Below, piece by piece: positions 13,421 to 19,385 of a stretch of 64,000 bases of DNA (its first letter is position 1; each line of letters starts with the position of its first letter). The notes under the pieces were generated by a model. That model saw nothing but the letters and a program-made list of their open reading frames with translations. It was not told the DNA's origin and did no database searches. Location: assembly GCF_006494715.1 (NCBI RefSeq), contig NZ_CP041151.1, forward strand, positions 1,426,001 to 1,490,000. Reading direction: 5' to 3'. Origin of the DNA: Shewanella sp. SNU WT4 (lineage in GTDB: Bacteria; Pseudomonadota; Gammaproteobacteria; Enterobacterales; Shewanellaceae). The translations under genes were made by a program, and so were the position numbers.

Positions 13421-13801
13421 TTATTCTTTAAGAGCACCGCTGCGATGCTGCTCAATAAATAGACTCAATTCGCGGTCCAACAGGCTAGTGTCACCTAGGT
13501 TTAATTCAATCAAGCGGCGTAAGTGGCTGATAGATTCCACATCAATATGTTGCGTGCGTAAACCTAACCATTCCTTTTCTTGATGACTAGTTTCAACCTT
13601 CATTTGTAAGGAAATATCTGAGCTTGGCAAGGTGAAGTGCAATACCAGATCTGGACTTTTTACATTCAGTTCGGGAGGGCGCTCAACCAGCGCGCCATTC
13701 AAACATAAATCAATAATTCGCGTTGGCCAGCGTATGTTACTTTGCGCAATATAGGCATTAGCATTAAAAAAAATCCTTGAGAATTTTCGTCTATCATCCA
13801 T
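13421..13801 (-). CDS. Single-domain PilZ protein
   Basis: A 126-aa protein made almost entirely of one PilZ domain, a c-di-GMP-binding fold. The N-terminus has RRKFSR, giving the RxxxR arginines, followed by D-L-C-L-N-G for the DxSxxG loop, with Cys in place of Ser. It is convergent with radA and divergent from the TorR-like gene. It may act as an adaptor in surface or motility control; no partner is visible here. Confidence 0.8.
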   Translation of the reverse strand: MDDRRKFSRIFFNANAYIAQSNIRWPTRIIDLCLNGALVERPPELNVKSPDLVLHFTLPSSDISLQMKVETSHQEKEWLGLRTQHIDVESISHLRRLIELNLGDTSLLDRELSLFIEQHRSGALKE

Positions 13802-13941: not shown

Positions 13942-13970
13942 TTATGAAATTTTAACCTGAGTTTATGAAA
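13942..13970. promoter_or_regulatory. Two phased TTATGAAA repeats before torR-like gene
   Basis: TTATGAAA occurs at 13942-13949 and 13963-13970, start to start 21 bases, 41-69 bases before the torR-like start. The core TATGAA equals the core of the tor-box complement (ATATGAACAG). This could allow autoregulation, as is known for E. coli TorR. Weak evidence. Confidence 0.3.
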
Positions 13971-14010
13971 AATTACGAATACACTTGTCTTCTAACCAAG
14001 GAGACACATA

Positions 14011-14751
14011 TTGCCAACTATTTTGCTATTTCAAGCCGCTTCCTGTGCAAGCCATTTACCTTATGAATTCTTTGAGTCGTTAGGGTATCAATTGCGGCGA
14101 GTGTGTAATCAAGAGCAGTTGTGGTATGAGCTTAACTTGCATAGCCCTGAGCTTATCTTGTTTGATACTCATACTATGCCGCAAGATAGCATTAGGTTGA
14201 TTCGTGAAATTCGCAGCCTTACAGTCAATCCTATCTTGGTCATCAGTCCTAACAATGATGTGTTTGATACCATAATTGCATTAGAAATGGGGGCGGATGA
14301 TTATATGGCGGCGCCTTTGGTATTAAGAGAGTTACAAGTGCGAATGCGCAATTTGCTGTGGCGCCAGCAGTTGTTAACTAAGACTCGGCAGCAGTTGCAG
14401 CAAAATAGCGGCTATGGCCAAGATGTGTATTTTGATGATTACCATTTATGCGTTAATCGTCGGCAATTATTTCGCAATCAAGAAGCAATCAGCTTAACTA
14501 AAGCTGAGTTTGAATTGTTGCAAGCCTTCACGCGCTACCCTCAGCAAGTATTGAGTCGCCATAGATTGATGCAGCACACTCATCACCGTCATGGCTATGT
14601 TAATGAGAGAACCATAGATGTGATTATTCGGCGCCTACGGCAAAAGTTGTGTTCAGGTTTATTTGTGACAGTCCATGGTGAAGGTTATTTGTTTGCGACT
14701 ATTCCAAGCGCAAAAAAACGCGGCCTAAGCCGCGTTTTCATTAATATCTAG
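14011..14751 (+). CDS. torR: TorR-like OmpR-family regulator with degenerate receiver
   Basis: A 246-aa response-regulator-type protein beside torECAD. The C-terminal winged helix (about 140-235) resembles TorR closely: TKAEFELL, TIDVIIRRLRQKL, HGEGYLFA. The receiver aligns along its length (LEMGADDYMAAPLVLRELQVRMRNLLWR), with phospho-acceptor Asp52 and Ser79 kept. However, the acidic pocket (Glu-Asp-Glu in E. coli TorR) is Gln8-Ala9-Ala10 and the conserved Lys before Pro is Ala101. TTG 14011 is the start, with AAGGAG upstream. No torS or torT is in the window. It is orthologous to TorR or a diverged paralogue; control by phosphorylation is doubtful. Confidence 0.8.
   Translation: MPTILLFQAASCASHLPYEFFESLGYQLRRVCNQEQLWYELNLHSPELILFDTHTMPQDSIRLIREIRSLTVNPILVISPNNDVFDTIIALEMGADDYMAAPLVLRELQVRMRNLLWRQQLLTKTRQQLQQNSGYGQDVYFDDYHLCVNRRQLFRNQEAISLTKAEFELLQAFTRYPQQVLSRHRLMQHTHHRHGYVNERTIDVIIRRLRQKLCSGLFVTVHGEGYLFATIPSAKKRGLSRVFINI
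14715..14738. terminator. Terminator inside the torR-like 3' end
   Basis: Ten-base-pair stem AAAACGCGGC (14715-14724) with GCCGCGTTTT (14729-14738), CTAA loop. It lies within the last codons of the torR-like gene (stop 14749-14751) and 30 bases past the convergent torD stop, so it can serve both genes. The protein tail KKRGLSRVFINI is encoded by it. Confidence 0.75.
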
Positions 14752-14768
14752 GTTTTTGCAAATAAGCT

Positions 14769-15383
14769 TTAGCTTTTATCAGACTTAACCCAGTACAAGG
14801 TTATCCGCGCTAGTGCTTGATAAAATTGCCCAGCATCTTGTTGCTCAACTTGGCGGCAAAACGCAGGTAACCAAGACAGTAAGCAATTATCAATAAATGC
14901 CATCTGCGCCTCGTAACTTGCATGGGTGCATAAATGCCCCATATACGAAAGCATTACCGCTAGATGATCGGCTGGTTCCTTAAAATCGCTTTGCACTGCT
15001 AATTGGCTTTGTTTTAAGAAATCACACATCAAATGATGTTGCTCTCCAAACACTAACACTTCCTTAGTATTAGCCAAGTAATGGCTAGCATAAGGCGTTG
15101 GCGCGTGCTTACTGCCAATTAAAAATAATCCGCAGTAATCGGCCGCCAGCTCCAACAATTGCCGCTCATTATGAATTTGCGACAATTGCTCCATGATGAT
15201 TTGTACGTCGTGTTTGACGACAGGATCTTGCGCCAATTGTAACCAAAAAGCTGTTGCTTGAGGCTGAGTTAGCTCGGCGAGCCTAACATCATCTAATTCT
15301 CGGGCAAATAGCGATGAAAGCAGCTGGTAAACCAGCGCTCTCACTTGGTCAAGTTCGCTAATGCTGCTAGCTAGCTGACTCAT
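14769..15383 (-). CDS. torD: TorA maturation chaperone TorD
   Basis: Cytoplasmic chaperone that binds apo-TorA and its Tat signal before molybdenum cofactor insertion. This all-helical 204-aa protein contains the TorD-family stretch [23 protein letters not shown] and [19 protein letters not shown] (ExxDH motif). Its start overlaps the torA stop by 4 bases, implying translational coupling and making it the last gene of torECAD. Confidence 0.95.
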
Positions 15384-17878
15384 ATTGATACCTCGATTGG
15401 CCCACTAAAGCCGCTGACTTCAGGCACCTTGCCGCGATACTTCTCATAATTGACTAAGCAAGTATATGCCGAGCAAGCTTGAGCCAATTTCGAGGTACCA
15501 ATGTCTAATGTACAAGTATTTGGATCGCCATAAGAATCCATAGCACCTATCTCATTGCCGCCTTGTTTGCTGCCATCTTTACCCACAGGGCTATACCAAG
15601 CGCCTTCTTGAATACGAATTACTCCTTCAGGGAAATTACTTGAAATAACAGCGCCAGCCAGTAACTGACCGCGGTCATTAAAAACACGGATAATATCGCC
15701 GTCGTTAATGCCGCGAGCTTTAGCATCTTTAGCATTGATGTAGCATGGCTCGCGCCCTTGGACTGTATACGTTTCTCTATACGTATCTGATTCACACATT
15801 TGCGAATGCAAGCGCTTATCTGGATGACATGATTGCAACCAGATAGGATGCTGCTTGGAGCCAGGGCCGCCGTGGCTGCGCTCTGCCTTTTCCATCCACT
15901 TTGGATGACCTGGGCAATCATCATAGTTATAGCTAGCAATCTTGCGGCTAAATATTTCAATTAAGCCAGATGGCGTGCCTAATGGGTTGATTTCAGGGTC
16001 ATCACGGAACGCTTGGTGTCTAACCCAAGGCTCGCCTGGGCCAAAATCAAAGTAACCACTTTGCCAAAAGGTATTGAAATCAGGCATGTCCCATTTTTTG
16101 GCATTATCTTTTTTGCAATCGTTATACAGCATGGCTAGCCATTGCATTTCATTCATGCCGCGAGTGTATTGCTTCTCTTTGTCTGGGCCTAACATGCGGG
16201 CAAAGCGCGTGAAGATTTCAAAATCAGATAAACTAGAATATAACGGCTCCACCATTTTCTTCATGGCTATCACGCCGCGATTGGCATAAGCGCCATAGAT
16301 ATCAATATCGTTGCGCTCAAAGGTGGTACAAGCGGGCAGAACTATGTCTGAAAAGCGTGAACCCGCGTTCCAGTTAGTGTCTATGGTAACCACGCATTTT
16401 AATTGGCGGTAGGCCTCTTTCATGCGGTTACGTTGCTGGTGGTGATTCCAAGGGTTACAGCCAGAAAACACCATCATTTTGACATCTGGCAGTTTTACTT
16501 TACTGCCATTGGCATCAATCACTTTGCCGGGTTCTAAAATGGAGTCAACCCAGCGCGCTACTGGGATAACACTAGAATAGCCTTTAAAGTCTTCACTTGG
16601 GTAAATTGGTGTCATACCTTCATCAAGGTTACGCGGGAACGCGCCTGGCATCGCTGCCCCTGATGACGGAATGCCTATGCCTGAATAATGGTGGCCATAG
16701 CTTATGCCGCCGCCAGGTAAGCCAATTTGACCTATCATGGTGGCAAGCACGGCTGACATCCAATACGGCTGCTCACCATGTTGCTGGCGCTGAATACACC
16801 AACCCACCATGATTTGCACTCGACCTGTGGTCATAATTTTGGCGAGTTCACGGATTTTATCCGGGCTAATGCCACAAATAGGACTCGCCCATTCCGGGGT
16901 CTTAGCCACGCCGTCTTGTTCGCCTGTGATATAAGGCAAAAACTCTTCAAAGCCTAAGCTGTAGCCTTCAATAAACTCTTTGTCATAGCTGTTATTAGTT
17001 ACCATCTCATGGGCGATAGCCAGCATTAAGGGCACGTCAGTTTGCGGATTAACGTACTGGTGCTCACATTCAAGATAATTTTGAGTTTTGCTGACTACAG
17101 GATCTATGCTGATCACCCGAATCTTGCCGTCTTTAACTAATTGCTTAAGTTCAGCTAAGTAGGCATAAGATTCGTGGGTTTCAGTATTCCAACCGACCTG
17201 TAAGTTTTTATAAGGGTCGTTCGACCACAGAATAATGGTATCTGAGTGCTCTAAAATCAGCGACCACGAGGTGCCTTGGGCATACACTTCCGTCGAACCT
17301 AAAACGTAAGGCAAGATCACTTGCCCCGCACCAGTTGAGTAATCCCCTACCTTTTTAACAAAGTTGCCATGCATAGCCACGGCTCTTTGCATATGGCTGG
17401 TGCATGAGTGCAACTGACCTACCGCGCGCCAACCGGTTTGGCCTGCGTGCAAACCTGATGGTCCATATTGAGTTTGTACTTGATTCAATGCCTCAATAAA
17501 CATCGACAAGGCTTTGTCCCAAGTGACGCGTACAAAACGAAAATCGCCGCGAGTATCTGGATTGGCGCCAAAACCACCGGTTAAATAATCGAGGCGCACC
17601 ATAGGGTAGCGGGCGCGGGAATTGTTATAAACCAAGCCCTTAATGCCATTAATCATATCACTTGGGTATTTATCGTAATCAAAGGGTAATACCTTATCTA
17701 TCACCCCATTTTTACGGCTAATTTTAAAGGCGCCAAAGTGTGAGCCTGTTACCAAGTAATCGCTTGAGCCTGCTTCGCCTGCAGCGGCTAGGGCTTCAAA
17801 GGGGGACAGTAGCGAGCTGCCAGCGATAGATACGCACGAGACAGATAACAACCCTTTCAGAAATTCTCTTCTATTCAT
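15380..17878 (-). CDS. torA: TMAO reductase TorA, molybdenum catalytic subunit
   Basis: Periplasmic bis-MGD enzyme that reduces trimethylamine N-oxide to trimethylamine. The 832-aa precursor opens with the Tat motif NRREFLKGL, followed by a hydrophobic stretch and cleavage near ALAAAGEA. Molybdopterin domains follow: [57 protein letters not shown] and a C-terminal molydopterin-dinucleotide domain with [10 protein letters not shown]. It sits 12 bases after torC and overlaps torD. Confidence 0.96.
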
Positions 17879-17890
17879 CTTAGTTTCCTA

Positions 17891-19075
17891 CTAGTGCTGA
17901 GCGCTTTTATCGAAGGTGGATGAATGCTCTTGCAGGTATTTCTGCACTAGAGCTGTAGTATCTTGATCCATATTCACAAACGCGAGCATGCCTTGGAACA
18001 TTCCAGGCCAAGTGTTGGCATCGAAGTGGTTAGGTGCAGGTTGGGTATGACAAACACTGCATGAAGTATTGTAGGTTTCAGCGGCGTAGCTCCACAGCGG
18101 CGCATCACTAGTCAATAAGTAATCCTTGTCTGTCCACATATCCGCTTCAACGCGTTGCCAGGTTAAACCGGTTAATGGGTCGACTTTTTCTTCAAAGACT
18201 CTAACTAAGCCTTCTTTAGCCGCGGCATCTTTTGATAATTGTGCAGTTAAGATATTGACGCCGAAGTCAGCATAAATAACGCGGCCTAAACCAACACGCT
18301 TACGCCAGCCTTTAATGGCCACTTTAACGCGATTATCTTTGCTCTCTAAGATGTTCACTTCGGTCGCAATGTTAATTGTGCCTTGATCTTCTTTTGAGCT
18401 TGCATCGAGATATAAAGGCTTAGTGAGCGCTGTGTAGTAGTCAGCATTGACTTGCAGGCTAGTAACACCGCGGCCCACTTGGGCAATCAATTCAGGTGCT
18501 CTGGCAGTACCCATGTTAGGTAAGTTATGAGCAATACCCTTATGACAATCAATACAACTTTGATCGATTTCAGCCGCATGCTTCATCTGTTTTACGGCAA
18601 GTGGCGACATAGTGTCCCATTTCATCGATTTATATTGATGGCAGTTTTTACAAGCCAATGAATTAGTCATATCGAAACGCTTCCATTCGCGGGCTGCCAT
18701 TTCTAAGCGTTTGTTCTCAAATTTTTCATCGGTATCTATGGTATTGACTAGCCAGCCAAATACTTCTTTTGAGGCTTCCATCTTACGACCAATTTTCTGG
18801 GTCCATTGATGGGGGACGTGGCAATCAGGGCAGGTGGCACGCACTCCTGAATGGTTCGACCAATGCACTGTGTTTTGTAATTCTTTATAGGGTTTTTGCA
18901 TGCCATGACAGCTAATGCAAAATTCTTCGGTGTTGGTGTGTTCCAGTGCTGTGTTAAAACCTCCCCAGAACACTATGCCCATCACAAAAGAACACAGAAT
19001 AATGGTACCTAACGATAAATATTTGGCTGGCGAGCTTAAGGTTCGCCACAGATTGCGTAACCACTTCATAGACAT
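17891..19075 (-). CDS. torC: Pentaheme c-type cytochrome TorC
   Basis: Membrane-anchored NapC/NirT-type cytochrome passing electrons from quinol to TorA. The 394-aa protein has an N-terminal membrane anchor (about residues 17-37) and five CxxCH heme motifs: CISCH, CPDCH, CKNCH and CIDCH in the NapC-like part, and CSVCH in the C-terminal TorC-specific domain. Length matches E. coli TorC (about 390 aa). It lies between torE and torA. Confidence 0.96.
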   Translation of the reverse strand: MSMKWLRNLWRTLSSPAKYLSLGTIILCSFVMGIVFWGGFNTALEHTNTEEFCISCHGMQKPYKELQNTVHWSNHSGVRATCPDCHVPHQWTQKIGRKMEASKEVFGWLVNTIDTDEKFENKRLEMAAREWKRFDMTNSLACKNCHQYKSMKWDTMSPLAVKQMKHAAEIDQSCIDCHKGIAHNLPNMGTARAPELIAQVGRGVTSLQVNADYYTALTKPLYLDASSKEDQGTINIATEVNILESKDNRVKVAIKGWRKRVGLGRVIYADFGVNILTAQLSKDAAAKEGLVRVFEEKVDPLTGLTWQRVEADMWTDKDYLLTSDAPLWSYAAETYNTSCSVCHTQPAPNHFDANTWPGMFQGMLAFVNMDQDTTALVQKYLQEHSSTFDKSAQH

Positions 19076-19101: not shown

Positions 19102-19269
19102 CTAGTGGCCTGGAATTCCGTAGAAAGTTTGATAAAACCAGATAAAGAAGCCATAGGCTGAAATCAGACCGATAGTCAGAAGTGGGAACAAGATCACTAC
19201 GACAAATCCTAGGGCTTTAAGCTCGCCCCCTTTGGTTGTCTCGTCTTGGTTTTTGTTTGTGTTATTCAT
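19102..19269 (-). CDS. torE: Small membrane protein TorE (NapE/TorE family)
   Basis: A 55-aa single-helix membrane protein: hydrophilic N-terminus (MNNTNKNQDETTKGGEL), then a hydrophobic helix and the conserved end FYGIPGH. It is the first gene of torECAD, as in other Shewanella; its role is unclear. An upstream in-frame start at 19293 would add eight residues, but ATG 19269 has GGAG at the right distance. Confidence 0.88.
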   Translation of the reverse strand: MNNTNKNQDETTKGGELKALGFVVVILFPLLTIGLISAYGFFIWFYQTFYGIPGH

Positions 19270-19308: not shown

Positions 19309-19385
19309 ATAATAGACTAAGAATATGAACCCGAATGTTCAGTGCTATGAATGGATCACGTCTAAATATGAAAAGATGTGAACAG
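19309..19385 (-). promoter_or_regulatory. torECAD promoter with four tor-box-like decamers
   Basis: Complement of the TorR box CTGTTCATAT is ATATGAACAG. On the + strand, near-matches lie at 19323-19332 (8 of 10), 19345-19354 (7 of 10), 19366-19375 (9 of 10) and 19376-19385 (9 of 10), all in the same orientation; the last two are directly abutting. A minus-strand -10 TATTAT is at 19309-19314, so the box at 19323 overlaps the -35 position, as in the E. coli tor promoter. torE starts 40 bases downstream. Confidence 0.75.

Follow-up and report, generated by a model that had tools for sequence, protein, structure and literature searches.

What does a response regulator do once its sensor is gone and its receiver has lost most of the residues needed for phosphorylation? 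The tor locus of Shewanella sp. SNU WT4 raises this question, because the regulator next to its torECAD operon resembles TorR but has a degenerate receiver. The window, meaning the whole stretch of 64,000 nucleotides analysed here, belongs to a genome (G000) of 4.13 Mb, which is assembled in 2 contigs and 100% complete. The features of the locus are, by window position:

13944 to 13979, minus strand: tor-box site 5' of torR with the pair TTCGTA-N4-TTCATA at 13964-13979, candidate autoregulatory operator, one of two genome-wide matches
14011 to 14751, plus strand: torR orthologue with pseudo-receiver and intact winged-helix DNA-binding domain, assigned by reading frame, profiles, alignments and gene position
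14752 to 14768, no strand: gap of 17 bp between the stop codons of torR and torD, where torT and torS sit in sensor-bearing genomes, for example G065
14769 to 15383, minus strand: torD, chaperone, above the NF003442 cut-off
15380 to 17878, minus strand: torA, TMAO reductase, above the TIGR02164 and NF011682 cut-offs
17891 to 19075, minus strand: torC, pentaheme cytochrome
19102 to 19269, minus strand: torE, 55 residues
19323 to 19382, minus strand: tor-box array 5' of torE, with TTCACA-N4-TTCATA at 19367-19382, CATTCATAG at 19345-19353 and GGTTCATAT at 19323-19331

The torR reading frame encodes 246 residues without internal stops, and its TTG start is preceded by GGAG at 14000-14003. TTG is also the start codon in a second genome, G099 (L158), and ATG is used in G020 and G109. 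At the other end, the last codons run through a terminator-like GC hairpin (AACGCGGC-loop-GCCGCGTT, 14710-14751) at the convergent junction with torD; canonical TorRs stop about ten residues before the end of the window protein. Residues 1-118 form the pseudo-receiver and residues 140-230, approximately, the DNA-binding domain. The Pfam profiles Response_reg and Trans_reg_C score 34.0 bits (cut-off 30.2) and 66.7 bits, and with PF00072 followed by PF00486, both above the gathering score, the protein belongs to the OmpR/PhoB family. An end-to-end alignment with E. coli TorR, as claimed in an earlier sequence-only reading of this DNA, holds in part: residues 20-118 match the solved receiver 1zgz but the first 19 do not, and the NCBI TorR equivalog model NF008034 covers only residues 19-230 with 224.1 bits, below its 275-bit cut-off. 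This cut-off is passed by the related clusters P0033 (named S. corallii), P0007, P0023, and P0072, and not by P0002, the G099 protein (named Shewanella sp. NIFS-20-20), which is 68% identical to the window TorR.

The same reading had described the receiver site as retaining Asp52 and Ser79, with a Gln8-Ala9-Ala10 pocket and Ala101 in place of Lys, and the alignments confirm all of these residues. Asp at positions 8 and 9 and Lys at position 101 are present in 22 of 22 canonical Shewanella TorRs, so that the window TorR, with Q8, A9, and A101, is without both acidic residues and the Lys. It thus lacks part of the set used for phosphorylation, which consists of two acidic residues, Asp, Thr/Ser, and Lys, and with D52 present it does not fall into the class of aspartate-less receivers either. 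In addition, Pro follows S79 instead of the Gly of all 22 canonical proteins, D+4 is Met instead of Pro (21/22), D+8 is Ser instead of Gly (22/22), and two residues beyond the Lys position Leu replaces Phe. According to a review on pseudo-receivers, in which these positions are discussed, the second acidic residue (position 9 here) is the one that binds the metal directly, and Leu two residues past the Lys position is among those shifting CheY toward active conformations (PMC12632262). A sequencing error at the receiver codons is very unlikely because the separate assembly G099 has Q8, A9, D52, S79, and A101 as well.

The order of genes in G000 is radA, PilZ (minus), torR (plus), torD-A-C-E (minus), and a transporter gene. 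In G065 it is radA, PilZ (minus), torR (plus), torT (minus), torS (plus), torD-A-C (minus), and the same transporter gene. Four genomes, namely G000, G099, G020, and G109, have torR directly adjoining torD, with torT and torS gone from between. Judged by this order, the window torR is the orthologue in its ancestral place beside the tor genes (radA-PilZ-torR-[torT-torS]-torDACE) and not a paralogue. The suggestion that it might be a diverged paralogue of a true TorR encoded at another place accordingly finds no support: a search of the genome for a second torR with intact receiver and for torS yielded a 257.3-bit match, under the TorR cut-off, and no TorS above its cut-off. The 257.3-bit protein has an intact phosphorylation site (L002), but the same protein is present in genomes with a true TorR, and near-equal matches (about 256-258 bits) are found in many genomes, with or without a true TorR; as a guess, it could be ArcA. 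Compared with the window TorR itself, the second-best regulator of the genome reaches just 89.7 bits and 31% identity. The neighbour of torR at 13421-13801 (minus strand) is a small PilZ-domain protein, a homologue of which adjoins torR also in G099, G020, G109, G033, G065, and G123.

That neither TorS nor TorT was in view had been noted rightly, and it holds genome-wide. No match to TorT at E<=1e-10 and no TorS above the cut-off were found in G000, G099, G020, or G109; the highest-scoring match to the TorS model in G000 reaches 385.6 bits, where the cut-off is 676.5, and is confined to model positions 433-944. A TorTSR phosphorelay, which comprises both TorS and TorT, was thus not found in G000. 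TorA is 92% identical to the window protein in G099, followed by 84% and 82% in G020 and G109, and the next full-length TorA has 79%. The torS-bearing G055 has a partial TorA (residues 172-831) that falls between G020 and G109 with 83%.

We searched 129 Shewanella genomes and found TorS, TorT, and TorR above cut-off in 78, 78, and 79 of them, and TorA at E<=1e-200 in 83. Receivers were read in 81 genomes, which are the 79 with TorR above the cut-off plus G000 and G099, both of which score below it. All 76 TorS-bearing genomes have an intact receiver, and all four genomes without TorS and TorT (G000, G099, G020, and G109) have an altered one. In the one remaining genome, G122, the receiver is intact and torS is split into three pieces in different frames (G122:C1, L163 6646-9578), which may be a recent loss or an assembly error. 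The Fisher value for sensor against receiver state, 6e-7, overstates the case because the four torS-less genomes probably share one deletion. Two further genomes stand outside the 81: G055, in which the TorR match is without the first 73 residues (torS is present, and the Thr and Lys positions are intact), and G097, which has torS and torT on a 4.3-kb contig and no TorR above the cut-off. Ferrimonas senticii (L090) had seemed to be a counter-case, with an intact receiver and no TorS-like match in the flanks; it was dropped since TorS is found elsewhere in its genome with 701.4 bits, above the cut-off.

Among the best 120 matches listed of each of two protein searches, eleven clusters have the degenerate receiver type, and the TorS status is known for four of them (the G109 protein is nearly identical to P0007). 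In a tree of 44 rows the eleven clusters are on one side of a branch with a support of 100/100, or 86/100 if the active-site columns are removed. In a tree of the DNA-binding domain only they do not form one group and two changes are needed, but a single group is not rejected (p-AU 0.59). The direct Mg2+ ligand at position 9 has been lost in all eleven clusters, being A, T, G, or S. D52 has been lost in five (P0023, P0050, P0059, P0072, and P0075) by at least two changes, K101 in five by at least four changes, position 8 in two by one change, and S/T79 in none. S/T79 and an aromatic residue at 98 are both retained in 11/11 clusters; in the review, both equivalents are reported for 47% of pseudo-receivers (PMC12632262). 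The metagenome protein P0107, a TorR-like receiver with His for Lys, lies outside both degenerate groups. In G020 and G109 the Mg2+ ligand alone is lost and D52, S79, and K101 are retained, and therefore residual phosphorylation from small donors is conceivable in these two. With neither the direct metal ligand nor the Lys in place, the window protein is very unlikely to be phosphorylated at Asp52, as had already been supposed from the site residues, and this is strengthened by the genome-wide absence of TorS and TorT and by the five clusters that have lost Asp52 itself, which suggest that this residue can be spared.

What is conserved has shifted from the receiver to the DNA-binding domain. 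The 22 canonical Shewanella TorRs have mean pairwise identities of 84% in the receiver and 76% in the DNA-binding domain, compared with 61% and 87% for the nine clade members without the window pair; the window pair itself (G000/G099) has 65% and 77%. From canonical proteins to the clade, the frequency of the majority residue drops in the surroundings of the strands, namely from 0.95 to 0.49 for strand 1, from 0.91 to 0.52 for strand 3, from 0.98 to 0.59 for strand 4, and from 1.00 to 0.67 for strand 5. Helices 4 and 5 fall less (0.94 to 0.85 and 0.99 to 0.84), and the DNA-binding domain rises from 0.83 to 0.87. No clade member deviates at E92, D96, E107, R111, or R113, which probably include salt-bridge residues of the dimer face. 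This face is formed by helix 4, strand 5, and helix 5 in the OmpR family, as stated in the review (PMC12632262). Wherever rates are computable, dN is much smaller than dS, but between the clade genomes dS has reached saturation; G000 and G099 have a dN of 0.27 and a dS of 3.4 (saturated), values that apply to the receiver only.

The predicted operators have been retained as well. TorR is known to bind TTCATA (PMC5767261). The upstream region of torE contains a TTCAYA-N4-TTCATA pair, followed after 15 bases by TTCAT; a fourth box, which varies more, comes next. All 21 torE promoters compared have TTCAY at this distance from the pair, 17 of them from genomes or loci with TorS (in pieces in G122) and four from the torS-less genomes; predicted tor boxes thus stand at the target promoter, as for an orthologue. 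Allowing up to one mismatch, the three-box pattern has two matches in the whole of G000, an exact one upstream of torE and another, with a single mismatch, upstream of torR, and it is found at the same two places in G099. In G020 and G109 this three-box pattern, longer than the pair, matches at torE and not at torR. The control pattern, read backward, has no match in G000 and one each in G109 and G115. A matrix trained on 14 of the 17 promoters (the near-copies L039, L057, and L060 were dropped) gives the torE site 23.4 bits versus -11.0 for the next site in the window. Taken by itself, the matrix does not decide the matter, since a score of 20.9 was reached in one of 20 base shuffles and the site of G099 has 14.7. 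By the matrix, the operator is absent from G115, which has torA and no TorR above the cut-off, and from the fragmentary G111 (52% complete). The box pair 5' of torR is not new: within one mismatch, it is present in the 260 bp before torR in 50 of the 81 genomes, including all four without sensor. In G000 the same match is reached by 48 of 5000 base shuffles of this upstream region, and the pair falls into the part that is best conserved between G000 and G099.

Loss of the sensor together with a degenerate receiver is also seen in Vibrio. The TorR of V. porteresiae (P0108) has a degenerate receiver of a different kind, and among 227 Vibrio genomes close relatives of it (E<=1e-112) are found in three, G604, G680, and G588 (L241-L243). 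The acidic pair is E-S or E-G in these, the Asp position E in two and D in one, the Thr position N, and the Lys position R. The 30 other Vibrio TorRs compared have E-D, D, T, and K. TorS is above the cut-off in 30/30 genomes with an intact receiver and in 0/3 of the others; the 33 genomes are those with a TorR locus in hand and not a random draw. Furthermore, TorA at E<=1e-150 is absent from G604 and G680, G588 has only a weaker relative below the family cut-off, and no torD-like match lies within 18 kb around torR in any of the three; torD is beside torR in both sensor-bearing Vibrio loci tested. Because TorS, TorA above the cut-off, and torD were not found, TorR seems to have been retained in this lineage after the loss of both its sensor and its usual target. 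Since a single deletion probably underlies all four Shewanella cases, about two independent events should be counted and not seven.

How could the regulator work without its sensor? We infer that sensor loss came first and that TorR has become a phosphorylation-independent, constitutively dimerising regulator of torECAD and of torR itself, and give this reading a probability of roughly 0.6. It is favoured because the conserved parts are those needed for dimerisation and DNA binding. According to this scheme, torT and torS would have been deleted from between torR and torD in one Shewanella lineage. Without the kinase, the phosphorylation chemistry of the receiver would have decayed stepwise, the direct Mg2+ ligand first and Asp52 and/or Lys101 afterwards in different branches, and conservation would have continued in the DNA-binding domain, at both operators, and on the face made by helix 4 and helix 5. 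TorR would then dimerise constitutively, bind the torE boxes, and keep torECAD on without sensing TMAO, and by binding the box pair at its own promoter it would set its own level. Against this counts a paper according to which binding of TorR depends on phosphorylation (PMC10845959). The main rival, a repressor or locked-off form that occupies high-affinity boxes only, represses torR, and dampens a torECAD operon driven by other regulators, gains its standing from the unphosphorylated E. coli TorR, which is reported to occupy the high-affinity site and obstruct the polymerase (PMC5294996), and the box pair retained at torR would suit it. We nevertheless regard it as unlikely. The torE array has its full length and spacing in all four torS-less genomes, and a torA that is intact and so similar between G000 and G099 would hardly be expected of an operon silenced for good. 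The retained array and the intact tor operon therefore make activation more plausible than repression.

It is less probable again that the pseudo-receiver can still be switched, having come to bind a cytoplasmic ligand or a protein partner that is new to it. The retention of S/T79 and the aromatic residue in every cluster speaks for it, as does purifying selection on the receiver fold in the Vibrio pair for which rates are computable (dN/dS about 0.05-0.06, with dS saturated). However, the pocket loops vary from cluster to cluster, so that no common new binding site is visible, and dimerisation alone can explain the conserved part. Phosphorylation of Asp52 by another kinase, for example ArcB, or by a small phosphodonor is highly improbable: D52 is present in the window pair and in six of the eleven clusters, and the genome has further hybrid kinases, but five clusters do without the residue and the window pair is without direct Mg2+ ligand and Lys and has Pro for Gly after S79. 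A dying gene under relaxed selection is the least credible of all, since the branch leading to the window pair, very long with its 2.4 changes per column, the TTG start, and the C-terminus running into the hairpin are outweighed by open frames in all four torS-less genomes, a DNA-binding domain that is more conserved in the nine clade members than in the 22 canonical sequences, and retained operators, which are missing from G115, a genome with torA and no TorR above the cut-off.

Beyond this locus we can only tentatively suggest, at clearly less than even odds, that loss of TorS repeatedly makes TorR phosphorylation-independent in much the same order of steps, starting with the direct Mg2+ ligand and going on to Asp and Lys, with the receiver re-used as a permanent dimeriser or as an input for a new intracellular signal and TMAO respiration uncoupled from TMAO sensing. 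This predicts Shewanella species whose TMAO respiration needs no TMAO inducer. One genus contains sensor-paired TorR and several pseudo-receiver stages whose operators place them at the same promoters, and another genus repeats the case, so that the question of how a regulator outlives its kinase becomes testable with few constructs and one reporter. The review calls the switching mechanisms of pseudo-receivers a mystery; it puts them at about 6% of a representative bacterial receiver set and describes most characterised ones as orphans (PMC12632262). A literature search found no report of a TorR lacking TorS, nor of the present case with its graded intermediates, retained operators, and recurrence in Vibrio, but subscription papers were mostly outside its scope and the unpublished status is thus unproven.

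The window TorR agrees with that of the TorTSR system of E. coli, Shewanella, and Vibrio in its place in the gene order, its domain architecture and DNA-binding domain, the tor boxes, and the torECAD neighbours, but is without TorS, TorT, Mg2+ ligands, and Lys and scores below the NCBI TorR cut-off. The V. porteresiae type shares the missing TorS and the degenerate receiver, and differs in what replaces the Mg2+ ligand (S or G), Thr (N), Lys (R), and, in 2/3, Asp (E), and by the missing torD (in the 18 kb taken) and TorA (above the family cut-off). ChxR, HP1043, and GlnR also have a pseudo-receiver on an OmpR/PhoB output and are reported to dimerise without phosphate (PMC12632262), but the window TorR has sensor-paired orthologues with intact receivers in the same genus. 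The closest precedent is the OmpR-type CosR of Campylobacter jejuni, which in one lineage is reported to have neither the kinase CosS nor the receiver Asp and is thought to be independent of phosphorylation, the receiver being intact where the kinase is present (PMC3938529). The Asp itself is replaced in CosR, whereas Shewanella TorR shows graded intermediates in which the Mg2+ ligand was lost first. Because of this precedent, TorR is best seen as a new case within a known kind, one that is finely graded and adds conserved operators, a target operon of known respiratory function, and recurrence in another genus.
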